In this document: in pieces, positions 24,050-30,730 of the stretch | Position numbering within the stretch: position 1 is the first letter of the stretch | Layout of the letters: each line of letters starts with the position of its first letter | Source of the DNA: an uncultured Candidatus Poseidoniales archaeon | GTDB taxonomy: Archaea; Thermoplasmatota; Poseidoniia; Poseidoniales; Thalassarchaeaceae | Assembly (NCBI GenBank): GCA_902514485.1 | Contig: CABXQY010000003.1 | Coordinates: 1 to 50,282 of the forward strand | DNA: 50,282 nucleotides | Direction of reading: 5' to 3' | The notes under the pieces: model-generated | What the model saw: only the letters and a program-made list of their open reading frames with translations | What the model was told of the DNA's origin: nothing | Database searches by the model: none | Program-made: the position numbers and the translations under genes

Positions 24050-24863
24050 TCTTCCTTCTTTCAAAGGCCTCTAACTCATTGTCATTCATATCCGACGGTA
24101 TAATCATACAGTGTATCCACCCATCTTTTAATTTAGAAAGTTGAGAAAGATTTCCCGCCCTAACTTTCTCCTCTTCCATAGAGATATCAGTCAATAAAAT
24201 CCCATTCCATTCATCGACCGGTTTTTTTAATATTTCAAATGTTGAAGTTTCTTGCAAAATTTTATTCGCCATCTTTGTTAGGAGGGCGATTGCCTCGGCT
24301 GGCTTCATTGGCGTTGGATTGACCACCCCCATTCCAGTTGGGTCCAAATCTAATAATACAAGTGTGTGTAATTTATTTTCATAATTTTTACAAATCATTT
24401 CCAGAGGTGAATGCGGCAAGTATTCACCGTAAGAAAAAGGAATGGTGACTTGTCTTCCAAATCGATACGATTGTAATCCAGATAGAGATACTGCAAGCGC
24501 CGTCGCAGTGATTCCGGGAACTACATTAAAATTAATTCCCAATTCATCACATCTTGCTTCTAAATCGACATGCGTCGTTGCTTGCATAGGATCTCCTACG
24601 ATTAAAAGAGCAACGGGGATTTCTTTGGCCATTTTCAACAATTCATCTGGGTTTTCTATATCGGGCCTCATCATCCGTTCCCATTTTCCTATCACAGACT
24701 CTAGTCTTTCTTCTTGTTTTGGAGGTAAAATTGCAGTATAACCTTCTAAATAACGCCTAGAACATGACTTTGCAATATCACTAGCATACTTACTCATGTA
24801 GTCTAAATTACCTGGTCCTAGCCCTACAAGCCAAAGGCCCGCTGGCAAACCTGTCTCCGTCAT
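24042..24863 (-). CDS. dphB: Diphthine synthase (SAM-dependent, tetrapyrrole methylase fold)
   Basis: LWLVGLGPGNLDYMSKYASDIAKS, LLIVGDPMQATTHVDLEARCDELGI, GLQSYRFGRQVTIPF. Confidence 0.9.
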   Translation of the reverse strand: MTETGLPAGLWLVGLGPGNLDYMSKYASDIAKSCSRRYLEGYTAILPPKQEERLESVIGKWERMMRPDIENPDELLKMAKEIPVALLIVGDPMQATTHVDLEARCDELGINFNVVPGITATALAVSLSGLQSYRFGRQVTIPFSYGEYLPHSPLEMICKNYENKLHTLVLLDLDPTGMGVVNPTPMKPAEAIALLTKMANKILQETSTFEILKKPVDEWNGILLTDISMEEEKVRAGNLSQLSKLKDGWIHCMIIPSDMNDNELEAFERRKNG

Positions 24864-26079
24864 GGTGAAGCGTCCTAGCCTTCTGCACATGATGAACATG
24901 ATGCGGCACTTGTTAGTACCGAATAGGAAAGTAGAGGATATTCTCTCTTTGATTATGGAGAATAATTGGTTGGCCGAAGGACAGAGAATTTTCTCATCAG
25001 ATGACGGTTTTTCTAGACTAATCCCCCTCTCACCTTCGGCAGATGCTGATCTTCCGAAATCATTTTCCGACTTTGAAATAATAATTTGTGAGGGGAAATT
25101 GGATGAAAGAGTAGATACTGATTGGTGGAACCATTTAACAGAATTACTCGGTAAAGAAGTAGTATCAAAATACCAAGAATCATGGCCATCTTCTCATGAA
25201 TTTTTAGGAGATATGATGGTAGTCAGGATAAATGATGACATTAAGTCATATACGTCGGAAATCGCGAGAGCCAAACTCCTCGCCCATCCGTCGATAAGAT
25301 TGATATTATCTGATGGGGGCGTAATGGGGGAATTCCGGATTAGAGAACTAGAGGTGATTGGAGGTAGAAAAGAATCGACAATATATACTGAAAGGATTCC
25401 CTCTGAAATCAAGAGTACTAAAGTTCTGATCAAAGAATCCGGAAGATATATTTCTTGTGACCCAAAAGTTGCCTATTACTCCACTAAACTTCAAACAGAA
25501 AGGCTGGAAACTCTTGGTTTCGCCAAAGAATTGCGCGCCGAACTAAATCGTCCATTATCAATATGTGATCCATTTTGTGGAGTTGGTCCCGCTTTATCTA
25601 CATTGATTGCCGAAGAAGACTTAGTCGGTGACCTACTTGCTTCCGATTTGAATTCAGCAGCCGTAGAATTATTATTCGAGAATCTTCAAAGATGGGACAA
25701 AAGAGATTATCCTATTGAATCCGGAAATCTTCAGCGGTATTATGATGATAGAATAGTTGGATTGGCCGATGCTACAAAGATTTCCTTGAATCCTGAGTAT
25801 GCCGGAAAGTGGGATTTATTATTAGTCAATTTACCACATAGAACAGTAGAATTCCTTCCCAAGTTAGTGCCTTTACTTAATCGAACTAACACTTCAATGA
25901 TACGGGGTAGAGTAATAGTTGCCGAATCCGAAATCCCCTTAGTAAATCAAAAAATTAATCAAATCCTTCCTACCCTTGCGGCCGGTAAACCGAAGCCCGA
26001 GTTAAAAATCAAGAGAGATTATAGTAGTGCATTACGACTGTGTTCATTCGAAGCATGGATTGAGAAAGATACCATATAA
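24862..26079 (+). CDS. Trm5-like class I SAM tRNA (guanine) methyltransferase
   Basis: AKLLAHPSIRLILSDGGVMGEFRIRELEVIGG, VAYYSTKLQTERL, CDPFCGVGPALSTLIA, DLLLVNLPHRTVEFLPK. The true start may be ATG 24889-24901. Confidence 0.82.
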   Translation: MVKRPSLLHMMNMMRHLLVPNRKVEDILSLIMENNWLAEGQRIFSSDDGFSRLIPLSPSADADLPKSFSDFEIIICEGKLDERVDTDWWNHLTELLGKEVVSKYQESWPSSHEFLGDMMVVRINDDIKSYTSEIARAKLLAHPSIRLILSDGGVMGEFRIRELEVIGGRKESTIYTERIPSEIKSTKVLIKESGRYISCDPKVAYYSTKLQTERLETLGFAKELRAELNRPLSICDPFCGVGPALSTLIAEEDLVGDLLASDLNSAAVELLFENLQRWDKRDYPIESGNLQRYYDDRIVGLADATKISLNPEYAGKWDLLLVNLPHRTVEFLPKLVPLLNRTNTSMIRGRVIVAESEIPLVNQKINQILPTLAAGKPKPELKIKRDYSSALRLCSFEAWIEKDTI

Positions 26080-26140
26080 CAGATTCTTAGTCCAATGGTG
26101 ACCCCCTACATCATATATATCTCTTAATTCAGTCATGTTA

Positions 26141-26875
26141 TCAACTCTCTATTCTTTTTTGCGAAATAATCTTTCCTGAACCTAGTTCAAAAGCTGAAAT
26201 TCTTGGATTCGCATCTCTCTGGAGATATACTCCTGTATCGATTCCAATAGCAGAAGGCCTACCATCTTCGAGTAATTTCTTACTAATCCAAACCCTATGG
26301 TCGTCAAAAATTCCATAATTCTGAACAATGGTGTGGCCAACAATTACAGTTCTTTTTAGGTCAAATGGATAATTTACTGTAAAAATATCCCTTGACCAAA
26401 GCCTCTCATTATCTGTCTGTTGATCTAGACTCGCCATATAAGGCATATCGCAATATCCTGCATGAACTAATCTAAATTTATCTAATATGATTTCAGTAGG
26501 CAGTAAAGAAATAAATTTTCTAATTCTCTGCATTTCCTCTCTTGATAATGACTTTATCGAAGACCAAAACCCAGTTTCGGAATAATTTCCAAAACCATCA
26601 GTCTTCAGCCAATCCATCAGCAGCATTTCTTCATGGTTCCCTTTCAATGAATACAGGTTATCTTCATACATAAATAAATTTACAACGCCCACACTATCTG
26701 GGCCTCTATCTACCATATCTCCCAGACAAATTGCAATATCTTCCAATCCCAAACTAAGATTATCTATCAAGGATTCCAAAGTTTCTTTATATCCGTGAAT
26801 ATCGCCAATAATCCAAACTTTATTTCCGGAATCTAAGACATTTTGAATTTTTTTTTCTAACCGCCTATTCCTCAT
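26141..26875 (-). CDS. Calcineurin-like metallophosphoesterase (PPP/ApaH-like)
   Basis: VWIIGDIHGYKETLESLI, CLGDMVDRGPDSVGVV, LKGNHEEMLL, VHAGYCDMPY, VIVGHTIV. Confidence 0.9.
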   Translation of the reverse strand: MRNRRLEKKIQNVLDSGNKVWIIGDIHGYKETLESLIDNLSLGLEDIAICLGDMVDRGPDSVGVVNLFMYEDNLYSLKGNHEEMLLMDWLKTDGFGNYSETGFWSSIKSLSREEMQRIRKFISLLPTEIILDKFRLVHAGYCDMPYMASLDQQTDNERLWSRDIFTVNYPFDLKRTVIVGHTIVQNYGIFDDHRVWISKKLLEDGRPSAIGIDTGVYLQRDANPRISAFELGSGKIISQKRIES

Positions 26876-27210
26876 TCTCCATCTCCTTTTTCAGAATTAG
26901 TAATTTTATCGGAAGGAATGATCCCAAGTTCGGGCCAAATCATCTCTTTATCCAATGTCCAACCACAATATAATGCCGACATTCCTGAAGACCAAACACT
27001 AAGAATATCCCAACGGCCTGATACACTAAATTTCCTGTAATATTCTGAAATTATTGTTATTCTTACACCCCAGTCATCAGTATTAATTTCGACAATTCCT
27101 GGAAATTGTTGCATTCTTTCTTGAAACCACATTTCAGTTCCATTCCATGATTGTACAAGAGATTCAAACAGTTCTCTTTTTTCTTTGATTTTTATTTCTT
27201 CACTCATCAT
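26872..27210 (-). CDS. Small protein of unknown function (about 112 aa)
   Basis: ORF overlaps the downstream phosphatase start by 4 bp; ATG 27210 overlaps the stop of the 53-aa ORF (ATGA). Confidence 0.7.
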   Translation of the reverse strand: MMSEEIKIKEKRELFESLVQSWNGTEMWFQERMQQFPGIVEINTDDWGVRITIISEYYRKFSVSGRWDILSVWSSGMSALYCGWTLDKEMIWPELGIIPSDKITNSEKGDGE

Positions 27211-27368
27211 TCCCACCCCTTTGAACTTAGTTCGGCTGAGAATGCCTTGTCCAGTGTACGTTGACAGGCAGGTGGATTTTTACATACATACTTGAGATCC
27301 GACCCTCGATGGAAGTTACAGGCCTTGTTCCAGAAAGCAATAGCTTCGGGTATAGAATAGGGACACAT
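27207..27368 (-). CDS. 53-aa Cys-rich microprotein, candidate metal-binding; not in supplied ORF track
   Basis: Hand-translated: MCPYSIPEAIAFWNKACNFHRGSDLKYVCKNPPACQRTLDKAFSAELSSKGWE*. Starts directly after the upstream stop with GGAGGTG 8 nt upstream; ATGA overlap with the next gene. Confidence 0.6.
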   Translation of the reverse strand: MCPYSIPEAIAFWNKACNFHRGSDLKYVCKNPPACQRTLDKAFSAELSSKGWE

Positions 27369-27764
27369 TCAAGCCACCTCCGGCCCAGGTTCTTCGACAG
27401 GAGGGGCGACAACATCTTCTACGGGAGCGTATGGCGTTACGACAGCATAGGGGTCTATCTGTAGATTAAGTCCTATTTTGTTGCAGGTCATTTTTATCAT
27501 AGCTAACACATGGTATGGAGTTTTATGGTCAACTACTGTGATTACCCTGAGGGTTTTTTCGTTCACTCTTTGTAGGGTGATGCCTGCGTCGTCCATGCGC
27601 CAGTATTGCCCATCGAGACACCCCATTTGTCTTAGTAGATATGACATATTTCCATTAGATAGGGCATACGTTTCTGCCTTCTCATTTAGTGTGGGCAAGC
27701 GTTCACTTACTGTCATCGTTTTGTTATTCTCTTCATCATTTTCTTCCATTTCTTTCATTATCAT
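27369..27764 (-). CDS. Small unknown protein, paralogue A2
   Basis: Similar along most of its length to 28094-28489 (ITLQRVNEKTLRVITVVDHKTP... vs VHIQKVTEDTVRCIAVVDHWLP...). SD GGAG overlaps the upstream stop. Confidence 0.75.
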   Translation of the reverse strand: MIMKEMEENDEENNKTMTVSERLPTLNEKAETYALSNGNMSYLLRQMGCLDGQYWRMDDAGITLQRVNEKTLRVITVVDHKTPYHVLAMIKMTCNKIGLNLQIDPYAVVTPYAPVEDVVAPPVEEPGPEVA

Positions 27765-27769
27765 TTTTT

Positions 27770-28093
27770 TTATCTCCTTTCCATATTTAATTGATAGTTA
27801 TACATTGTAGACCATACTTTTACTAAAGCATCATGATAATCATGATCACTCCGGCACTCATCCTTGAAACTCGTATATCCAACTTCTTGACCCAACTTTA
27901 ATAAAATCGGAAAAACCTTTTCTTTTTCTATTGTTATTCTAAATCTATAATCGGCCCAATCTATGACTTCTATGTCCATTTCTGGCCACAATATCTCTAG
28001 TGGTTCAACCACTCTTGATTTTACTTGAAAACAATCTTCAAGCGAGTTATGCTGCACTACACTAAAAAATCCATATTTTGTAAAAATCCACAT
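27770..28093 (-). CDS. 107-aa 'MWIFTKYGFFSVV' family protein of unknown function
   Basis: MWIFTKYGFFSVVQ ... DYRFRI ... YTSFKDE ... YHDALVKVWSTMY resembles a small uncharacterised family I recall from many bacteria. Starts immediately after the stop of A1. Confidence 0.75.
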   Translation of the reverse strand: MWIFTKYGFFSVVQHNSLEDCFQVKSRVVEPLEILWPEMDIEVIDWADYRFRITIEKEKVFPILLKLGQEVGYTSFKDECRSDHDYHDALVKVWSTMYNYQLNMERR

Positions 28094-28489
28094 TTAAGCC
28101 ACCTCCAAGCCAGGCACACTCCCATTGTCATCTCCGGAGCCACCTTCTTCGACTGCTATGTATGGCATAACCAGTGTATAGGGGGCCAACTCTAACTCTA
28201 TGTTTGCAGCTTCGAAAGCCACCTTCATCACCATGAGGCCAGAAAAAGGCAACCAGTGGTCGACTACTGCTATGCACCTTACAGTATCTTCAGTTACCTT
28301 CTGTATGTGTACGCCCTCCACCCACAGCGTTTCACCAGTCCTGTACGCGTCCATGAACCCATGGGCCCAGGACAGGTTTTGGTGACTTAGCGCGGCCACG
28401 ACGTCTGCTTCGTCCAACTCTGGCAGGTCTCTTGGAACCTCTCGAGAGGCAGTCTCTTGCGTGTTGTTATTTTTATTACTTTCATTCAT
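28094..28489 (-). CDS. Small unknown protein, paralogue A1
   Basis: Paralogue of 27369-27764; upstream AAGGAG SD; conserved PGLEVA C-terminus. Confidence 0.75.
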   Translation of the reverse strand: MNESNKNNNTQETASREVPRDLPELDEADVVAALSHQNLSWAHGFMDAYRTGETLWVEGVHIQKVTEDTVRCIAVVDHWLPFSGLMVMKVAFEAANIELELAPYTLVMPYIAVEEGGSGDDNGSVPGLEVA

Positions 28490-28503
28490 AATTTTTGTCT
28501 CCT

Positions 28504-28517
28504 TGGGGTTTTCCCCA
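28504..28517. promoter_or_regulatory. Perfect inverted repeat/hairpin TGGGG-TTTT-CCCCA directly upstream of the A1 ribosome-binding site
   Basis: Minus-strand leader: TGGGGAAAACCCCAAGGAGACAAAAATTATG; 5-bp stem, 4-nt loop, abutting AAGGAG. Confidence 0.5.
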
Positions 28518-28590
28518 CACTAGAGACTACTATTAGAAAAAAAAGCATCACTGAAAGCCTTAAATCAACTTAGTGCATCACATTATTAGT

Positions 28591-29637
28591 ATGGGCGAAT
28601 TTAAGGGTGGGGGAACGTCATTTCCTACGGAGATCCCGTGCCCTATTTGTGAAGGTAACAAATGTAGTGTATGTGATATGGGACCTTCATTGGAGGATAT
28701 TATTCATTGCACACATTTTGATTTGAAAGGGAAAAAATACCGTAAAAGAATATGTGAATGCGTTGAAGGAGAAATTGGCTGGACCAATAAATCAGGGAAA
28801 TGGGAGAAGCTAGGTGAAAAAACAATCAAGACCAAAGAAAGGGACTTCATCACCAAACCGGTCATTAAACAATTAAAGATAGTCCATACGACCAGATGGG
28901 AAAATAAATACAATCTTAAAAAAAGGTTCGGAAACAGAGCCCGCTCATCTTTAAGAATTAGCAAAAACGTCCTTGACATATTGAATAGCCAAACCGGTCC
29001 AGCTGGTAGAAGTGCTAGGAAACAGTTTGCACAAGGCCTTCCGGCTAGTGGAAATACGCATAGAATGCGGAGACAAATACTTCTTTTATTCCATACAGAT
29101 AGCGAATATTTACTCAGGCTTCTTGAAAGTTATTTGTCCAACCCCGAATATAGGAAAAAGATAGACTCAATAAGAGGTAAAGAAATTCACAATGTAGTCG
29201 CCCATCTACCAGTATTAGAGCGAGCAACCGATGATTTAATCGATAAAATCTTATTGAAAAAGGAAGCAACACAGTCCTCTATCGCTGAAAAAAAATTAGA
29301 ATTTTTAAAACATCCACTTTTGAAAGAGAAATCAATGTGGCGATGGAATTTATGCAGATTAATTGAACTTAGAGTTATACATAAAAAATGTCAATTAGAA
29401 TTTCCACAAGACGTAGATACAGAGACTACTGCCGACGCATATGATCGCTTGTATGGAAAAACATTTGCCATTATAACTGACAAAAATGCCAAAAATGATT
29501 CCATTGAAATGATAGAAATCCCTTTCATAGATAAGATTTCAGGCGAATGGAAAGAGAGAACCGTGGAACTAAGGCGAGATACCCAAGATAAAACCCTAGA
29601 CGAATTTGGAGATGAAGAAGAAGCAGAAGGGCCTTGA
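28591..29637 (+). CDS. Cys-rich N-terminal (putative Zn-binding) protein of unknown function
   Basis: CPICEGNKCSVCDMG...HCTHFDLKGKKYRKRICECVEG then a mostly helical, charged body; no recognised domain. Track start is GTG 28573. Confidence 0.7.
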   Translation: MGEFKGGGTSFPTEIPCPICEGNKCSVCDMGPSLEDIIHCTHFDLKGKKYRKRICECVEGEIGWTNKSGKWEKLGEKTIKTKERDFITKPVIKQLKIVHTTRWENKYNLKKRFGNRARSSLRISKNVLDILNSQTGPAGRSARKQFAQGLPASGNTHRMRRQILLLFHTDSEYLLRLLESYLSNPEYRKKIDSIRGKEIHNVVAHLPVLERATDDLIDKILLKKEATQSSIAEKKLEFLKHPLLKEKSMWRWNLCRLIELRVIHKKCQLEFPQDVDTETTADAYDRLYGKTFAIITDKNAKNDSIEMIEIPFIDKISGEWKERTVELRRDTQDKTLDEFGDEEEAEGP

Positions 29638-29686
29638 AAAGTGTACAAAGGATTAGTATTATGTATCTCATTAGTGTCGTACAACA

Positions 29687-30730
29687 ATGAGTCGTTTGAA
29701 AATCAAGGACGTTCTCAAGACAAAACGAGATAAAACAATCGCTATATTCTTAGTATCTACATTCTTGTTCTCAGTCGCTTACATCGGTATTGGATATACC
29801 GTCGCATCACAAGGGATCTCCGCAAATCCTGGTTGTGGCATGTGGGCATCTAATACACCCGATAATTGGACCACTAACGATGATTGGGAGAGTTTCGAAC
29901 CATGGAATGATTCCGAAGAGCGTATTGACATAAGAAAAAATTTCGATGTATCTAATTATCAATACCAGTATGAAAACGCTTCATTTGAACCTAGAGGCGA
30001 ATCTGGCATCACTTTACGTGGTTGGTATATAGAAATTGATCCAAATGCTCCTGTAGTTATACAAACACACGGAATGCCTCAGAATGGTAAATGCAAACCA
30101 GAGATGTTGTTGATGCAAGGATATCTTGCAGAGGCAGGAATCAATAGTCTTTCTTTCGATCTAAGAAATTATGGAGATAGCGACGTTGTAAGCGATTATG
30201 TCAGTATAGGGCAAAAAGAATACAAAGACATCCTTGGAGCTTATGATTGGTTAGTTTCTGAAAAGGGATATTCACCCGGAGAAGTTGGAATGACTGCCTT
30301 CTCACTTGGTGGTGGAGCGGCAATTGCCTTTGCAGATGAACCAGGAATAGGGGCAATGTGGCTAGATAGTGCCGTACTTGACTTCCCATTAGTCATAAAG
30401 AACGAATTAGATCGATTGGGATTCCCGTCTAGCTTCGCAGGACCAGGTGTCAGAGTTGGAGGATGGCTCGCAGGAGTCAGCCTTACTGAACGTTCACCAC
30501 TAGAAGCAGCAGATAATGCGGAAGGCCGACCAGTATTCCTTACACACGGAAAAGAAGACCCCAGAGTATCAATCGAACATTCTGAAACATTTGAGGAAAG
30601 AATGATTTCTAATGATGCTAACGTTACAACATGGTATGTTGAGCAAAGAGGACATGTAGATGCTTTATGGGGCAATTCAGAAGAATATAGCTCCAAATTA
30701 GCAGAGTTCTTCTCTAACGCCCTAGTTTAG
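29687..30730 (+). CDS. Membrane-anchored alpha/beta hydrolase
   Basis: N-terminal TM; VVIQTHGMPQNGKCKPEML, GMTAFSLGGGAAIAFAD nucleophile elbow (GxSxGG-like), C-terminal RGHVDALW His. Confidence 0.85.
   Translation: MSRLKIKDVLKTKRDKTIAIFLVSTFLFSVAYIGIGYTVASQGISANPGCGMWASNTPDNWTTNDDWESFEPWNDSEERIDIRKNFDVSNYQYQYENASFEPRGESGITLRGWYIEIDPNAPVVIQTHGMPQNGKCKPEMLLMQGYLAEAGINSLSFDLRNYGDSDVVSDYVSIGQKEYKDILGAYDWLVSEKGYSPGEVGMTAFSLGGGAAIAFADEPGIGAMWLDSAVLDFPLVIKNELDRLGFPSSFAGPGVRVGGWLAGVSLTERSPLEAADNAEGRPVFLTHGKEDPRVSIEHSETFEERMISNDANVTTWYVEQRGHVDALWGNSEEYSSKLAEFFSNALV

Follow-up and report, generated by a model that had tools for sequence, protein, structure and literature searches.

Among described systems, the closest to the locus analysed here are the ARG-centric anti-ADP-ribosylation conflict systems, in which rhodanese-type (R-P) or calcineurin-like phosphatases are accompanied by small predicted chaperones (Iyer et al. 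2022, PMC9503650). In these systems calcineurin-like phosphatases can replace the R-P ones, and a WYL or Nudix transcription factor is present in ~42% of the published cases (PMC9503650). Phosphatase modules can also defend against phages, as is reported for the antiphage KKP (kinase-kinase-phosphatase) module (PMC11341870), and antiviral defence in archaea is, according to a recent survey, poorly characterised (PMC12988326).

Here we analyse a compact gene cluster in a 50,282-nt stretch of DNA (hereafter the window) from an uncultured Candidatus Poseidoniales archaeon. Poseidoniales are very abundant uncultured marine archaea. The operon in the window represents, in atypical form, a cassette that recurs in Poseidoniales, and it shares with ARG-centric systems the presence of an R-P or calcineurin-like phosphatase: the calcineurin-like g6 in the window and a cysteine phosphatase (PTP) in its relatives.

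Gene content of the island

The window carries a 3.6-kb accessory island (26080-29686) between a TRM5/TYW2-like gene (24862-26079, plus strand) and an alpha/beta-hydrolase-like gene (29687-30730, plus strand). It holds six minus-strand genes, g1 (28489 to 28094, 131 aa), g2 (28093 to 27770, 107 aa), g3 (27764 to 27369, 131 aa), g4 (27368 to 27207, 53 aa), g5 (27210 to 26872, 112 aa) and g6 (26875 to 26141, 244 aa), as well as a divergent gene, up354 (28573-29637, plus strand, 354 aa), which has a CxxC zinc-ribbon-like N-terminus and for which the ATG at 28591 may be the better start. All six minus-strand reading frames lie where the initial annotation had placed them, and the tight packing that it described corresponds to junctions of 0, 5, 0, -4 and -4 bp from g1 to g6. 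Its unit was correct for these six genes and too short, as the divergent up354 is also a member. The paralogy it proposed for g1 and g3 holds (~34% identity, E ~1e-13), and so does its recognition of g6 as a PPP/calcineurin-like phosphatase (Pfam Metallophos, 7.7e-14), the sole member with a convincing Pfam or NCBIfam match. Neither library gave anything convincing for g1-g5 or up354, in line with its suggestion that the unit may be undescribed; PHROGs and PADLOC gave nothing useful for the same proteins, with zero PADLOC matches among the window proteins scanned. The claim that the first four genes are GC-richer than their surroundings is right for g1 (51%), g3 (44%) and g4 (46%), which exceed the window gene mean of 39.3 +/- 2.4%, and wrong for g2 (32.7%), which falls below it together with g5 (34.5%) and g6 (35.2%). 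Since GC-rich g1, g3 and g4 stand beside AT-rich g2, g5 and g6, the operon is a compositional mosaic. A sigma-70 promoter scan is uninformative for archaea.

g1 is composed of a g1-family domain and a low-confidence tail with the terminus G-L-E-V-A, while g3 is a second g1-family protein ending in G-P-E-V-A; the family has ~30 Poseidoniales members, with a C-terminal G-M-E-V-A after a variable linker. In the DNA the end of these genes reads ATG GAG GTG GCY, and in most of them the stop codon then runs straight into the following start (usually TGAATG, also TGAGTG and TAAATG), so that the GGAGGTG within this sequence stands 6 nt ahead of that start. In the window this Shine-Dalgarno site occurs on the minus strand for g2 within the final g1 codons (28100-28106) and for g4 within the end of g3 (27375-27381), where sequence and codon bias both mark it. 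The GAG codon is used by 28 of 29 g1-family genes against a background of 31% (P ~1e-13) and the GTG codon by 26 of 29 against 22% (P ~1e-14), both P values being uncorrected for relatedness, and the 26-nt surroundings of the g3/g4 site recur, 85% identical, at the g1/g2 junction. These sequence signs point to ribosome-coupled translation of g1-g2 and of g3-g4. As the glycine of this terminus keeps synonymous variation, the tail may also have a role at the protein level. The AF2 model of g1 (pLDDT 82, fair) has the helix-strand order a-a-b-b-b-a-b-b, which includes the a-b-b-b-a-b-b order of T3SS/YbjN chaperones, the kin of the TY-chaperone-type small proteins looked for in ARG-centric systems; Pfam matches and significant PDB fold matches are lacking. 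We regard this modelled likeness as a lead, and g2 would fit a permuted form of the same arrangement.

g2 belongs to an MWxFxxxGFxSIV family with the invariant residues M1, W2, G8, S11, V13, H15, R27, D48, Y49, R52, Y73 and K77, and its AF2 model is good (pLDDT 93.5). In the PDB, the models of g1 and g2 had no Foldseek match at E<0.001, and their profiles matched none of the sequences; recurrent Foldseek matches of g2 to LAGLIDADG proteins were weak (E 0.17 and worse) and were not accepted. Against viral models, g2 had significant matches to two unnamed proteins only. g4 is a Cys/His microprotein (C-x2-H ... C-x5-C) with eight family members in cassette loci, among which the motif Cx2HRG...CxNxxAC is conserved, and is a probable zinc binder judging by this motif. 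The one g5 homologue found lies in genome G133, where it adjoins g6 as it does in the window. Homology of up354 to T7-like RNA polymerases was tested and none was found.

g6 has the GDIHG, GDMVDRG, GNHE, HAG and GHT motifs of PPP-family metallophosphatases intact, as read in its sequence, matches the NinI-like phosphatase family phrog_246 in PHROGs (4.5e-33) and has 2qjc and 1g5b as relatives in the PDB. It is a predicted metal-dependent phosphatase. Related PPP phosphatases occur in 67 of the 146 genomes of the order, mostly outside the cassette.

Distribution, sites and surroundings of the cassette

g2 is present in 28/146 genomes of the order, and we mapped 31 loci, window included, by profile matches. 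Conserved co-occurrence, the lack of which the initial annotation had named beforehand as grounds for giving up the unit, is what these loci display: g1 and g2 are joint and adjacent across Poseidoniales. In 27 of the 31 loci, that of the window among them, g1 lies upstream of g2 on the same strand, directly beside it or with g4 between, which argues that the packing of g1-g6 is not due to chance; three of the four remaining loci stop at a contig edge within ~80 bp and the fourth, in G035, is atypical. At the genome level, g2 accompanies g1 in 17 of 18 genomes and PTP in 18 of 20 (P ~5e-14 in each case, uncorrected for relatedness). The profile matches give the order divergent up354-type gene, g1, (g4), g2, cysteine phosphatase, (g1b), where g1b is a second g1-type domain. 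The cysteine phosphatase is usual rather than universal (19/31 loci); an up354-type gene is found in 12 loci including the window, g1b in nine and g4 in eight. The g1 and g1b profiles are related with an hhalign probability of 95%. Two further forms of g1b were seen downstream in the cassette, one making up the C-terminal part of a 283-aa protein (L039 7774-8625) and one the N-terminal part of a 243-aa protein (L035 10400-11131).

The copy in the window departs from this order: g1 and g2 are followed by the second g1-type gene g3, by g4 and g5, and by the PPP phosphatase g6, and no PTP gene was found in its cassette or elsewhere in its own (incomplete) genome. G133 has both phosphatases in one cassette (g1-g2-PTP-g6-g5), an arrangement that by its gene order looks like an intermediate between the usual form and that of the window. 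In G010 (L032), a g1-type domain is fused onto the C-terminus of PTP.

The initial annotation had taken the block for an acquired unit, and the island is indeed missing from the same site in the closest relative. In that genome, G147, whose TYW2-like protein is 95% identical, the flanking genes are 41 bp apart and the site is empty. At the same site G089 keeps ~90 codons from the 3' end of up354, and in G126 there is a stub that aligns with the 3' end of g6 (local score 56, against a maximum of 35 in 500 shuffles); by their sequences, these stubs are deletion scars in two sister species. Because of the empty site and the two scars, we conclude that the island is both gained and lost within the genus. 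It is a recently gained, swappable cassette, and comparison of the genomes establishes its composition, its gene order and its mobility at a clean site. The start of the hydrolase gene and the preceding bases (29638-29790) resemble G089 and not the otherwise closest G147, which fits an arrival of the island by homologous recombination and suggests that local recombination may have brought the hydrolase gene start along.

Horizontal transfer is likely also because in the g2 tree the window clusters with genomes from both families (support 96/90). In a sample of the phylum outside the order, g2 was found in one genome only, as a weak match in an assembly with 7% contamination, and a scan of genome contigs reached Poseidoniales and, by two weak matches, Nitrospinota. 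Outside archaea, relatives of g2 occur in phages and bacterial plasmids. On the Aeromonas media plasmid pE31A (L164, 3501-4685), g2 forms one protein with a NUDIX hydrolase, and the neighbouring genes include ARG and WYL; a Sphaerotilus plasmid (L165) carries Sir2, a MavL-type macrodomain ADP-ribosylhydrolase, PTP, g2, a gene of unknown function, MoxR and vWA; and several related phages have a NUDIX gene directly 5' of g2, with an annotated ART further upstream in two of them. All three of these contexts hint at ADP-ribose chemistry. The best plasmid relatives of the cassette PTP are ARG-associated. The viral and plasmid neighbour set of 134 proteins, which is less selected than these individual contexts, has mixed members and two ART matches, with no visible enrichment of ADP-ribose enzymes around g2. 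A simple NUDIX-box pattern, which failed to pick up NUDIX genes of phages that Pfam does find, was discarded.

Several relatives near the window copy occupy, judging by their neighbours, conflict or mobile surroundings. In G124 (L038 1462-6626), g1-g4-g2 is divergent from an SF1 helicase gene and a gene whose product has two HxKx4D (PLD) motifs; the set of neighbours that includes this pair has PADLOC MkoA/B/C matches up to 5.5e-101, a score that belongs to the set, the assignment of individual proteins being made from their domains. In G133, JAB-type, E1-like and small genes precede the cassette, and its contig also bears a T7-like RNA polymerase; G116 has two copies divergent from T7-like RNA polymerases, one of which is seen as an N-terminal part only. 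Several other cassettes are surrounded by ordinary chromosomal genes, for instance by one gene set that recurs in several Poseidonia genomes.

The T7-like single-subunit RNA polymerases (PF00940) are an observation in their own right. They occur in 7/146 Poseidoniales genomes (L036 2860-6747, L041 6582-10415, L140 1-1221, L178 6797-10864, L179 6720-10646, L180 6228-9086, L181 323-3388 and L182 1486-4044), with motif A (LDASCNGxQH) intact in several and motif C (HD[AS]FG) in most, and the contigs of some are long and chromosomal, with enolase close by in G047 and a HisS-like gene in G078. We found no report of an archaeal T7-like RNA polymerase in the literature searched. In two genomes (L182 1486-9041 and L041 3374-10415) the polymerase is accompanied by a zinc protein, E1-like/Ub-like genes and a JAB-type gene, and in L182 also by a TFB-like gene; going by these domain names, which were assigned partly by eye, a new polymerase-plus-ubiquitin-like system is possible. 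One chromosomal site, marked by a 117-aa DsrE-like gene and a 1038-1058-aa MmpL-like gene, is a shared insertion hot spot: G010 and G064 have the cassette there, and in G108 the position is taken by a T7-like polymerase (L180 5321-9086, L032 8539-10744, L040 8280-9932).

Possible roles of the cassette

The caution of the initial annotation about any role was justified, and what follows is what we infer. We tentatively favour the explanation that this is a horizontally moving accessory cassette whose small adaptors are made with a phosphatase and steer it to a marked molecule during conflict. The g1/g3 proteins, g2 and the zinc microprotein g4 would be these adaptors, a role supported by the fusion of PTP with a g1-type domain and by coupled translation. 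On the model of the G010 fusion, g1-type domains would hold or position the phosphatase, and g2, with its invariant basic and aromatic residues, would bind a phosphate-bearing ligand. By analogy with ADP-ribose-linked conflict systems, the phosphatase would then act on modified macromolecules of the host or the virus and strip their terminal phosphates, the marks possibly being of the ADP-ribose type or phosphoproteins, and the setting would be conflict with viruses or other mobile DNA. In short, the cassette may be a tool against viruses or other invading DNA. Speaking against this explanation are the rarity of ARG in the order, the mixed neighbours of g2 in viruses and plasmids, the cassettes among ordinary chromosomal genes, the lack of significant PDB fold matches for g1 and g2, the many g6-related phosphatases outside the cassette and the lack of PADLOC matches. 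A bolder version of this proposal, which we consider a lesser possibility, is that the archaeal module has not been described before and that its conserved g1-g2 pair serves recognition and, with a zinc microprotein, works with unrelated phosphatases as interchangeable catalytic ends; g2 would then belong to a widespread family, as yet without a name, that reads ligands of the ADP-ribose type or phosphorylated ones and is shared with phages and bacterial plasmids.

The cassette could instead serve phosphoprotein signalling, the phosphatase reversing Ser/Thr/Tyr phosphorylation of host proteins in physiology or stress, with g1, g2 and g4 as regulatory subunits and no role in conflict. The classical protein phosphatases include enzymes of the PPP and DSP/CDKN3 types, the use of two unrelated protein phosphatases in related cassettes points to a phosphoprotein, and many cassettes sit at stable chromosomal sites, such as the recurring gene set in Poseidonia. 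We nevertheless judge signalling somewhat unlikely, in view of the patchy presence of the cassette, the island with its scars and mosaic composition, the Mokosh-like pair and T7-like RNA polymerases among the neighbours, and a window cassette in which no kinase was recognised.

That the cassette is cargo, by which integrated Poseidoniales viruses or plasmids counter host defence or seize host functions, is unlikely. Phages do carry relatives of g2, some of them 3' of genes for NUDIX and ART, T7-like RNA polymerases lie divergent from three of the archaeal copies, and one chromosomal site holds either the cassette (G010/G064) or the polymerase (G108). However, the island in the window has no integrase, capsid or terminase gene, scans of viruses with archaeal g2 or the polymerase as query yielded no Poseidoniales or other archaeal virus bearing the cassette, and many copies stand in ordinary chromosomal surroundings.

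It is very unlikely that the cassette is, in the strict sense, an archaeal branch of the ARG-centric systems. The choice between R-P and calcineurin-like phosphatases is the same and the bacterial relatives of g2 and PTP adjoin ARG, macrodomain and Sir2 genes, but the defining ARG enzyme (PF03747) is absent from the cassette and nearly so from the order, where it occurs in 1/146 genomes (G091, which is without g2), and the cassette has no recognisable WYL or Nudix regulator; with ARG missing, strict membership was dropped. A chance cluster of unrelated short ORFs, or a misannotation, as the short proteins without database matches might suggest, has practically no standing left, being refuted by protein-level conservation in other genera, conserved order and coupled translation.

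The cassette opens two questions to testing: which ligand the phage-shared g2 family recognises, and whether phosphatases of unrelated kinds can work in a single conflict module. It is small and clearly bounded, comes with an empty-site comparison, and is built from families absent from the main protein libraries searched.

Comparison with described systems

As a phosphatase-containing module the cassette is like KKP in general make-up; it differs from KKP, which has two kinase genes with its phosphatase, in that kinase matches are absent among the six genes and up354. Mokosh defence (helicase plus PLD nuclease) is linked to it through the Mokosh-like pair back to back with the G124 cassette; the pair is a neighbour only, and the cassette itself has neither helicase nor PLD. 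With NinI and lambda-type PPP phosphatases g6 shares the phrog_246 match and the PPP motifs, but it is archaeal and operonic with g1-g5. The usual cassette phosphatase of the relatives, with its HCxxGxxR loop, belongs with the CDKN3-like/Tc-R-P cysteine phosphatases, the type that the window's own incomplete genome did not yield.

The likeness to ARG-centric systems extends furthest. Both have a rhodanese-superfamily (DSP/CDKN3-like) phosphatase or a calcineurin-like alternative, both add small proteins and swap parts, and bacterial relatives of g2 and PTP adjoin genes for ARG, macrodomain, Sir2 and NUDIX proteins. Unlike those systems, the cassette is without an ADP-ribosylglycohydrolase and without a recognised WYL/Nudix regulator (no Pfam match for up354 or g1-g5), and its g1, g2 and g4 match no Pfam model. 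Lacking ARG, it is not classed among the ARG-centric systems; resembling them in its choice of phosphatase, it may work in a similar way.
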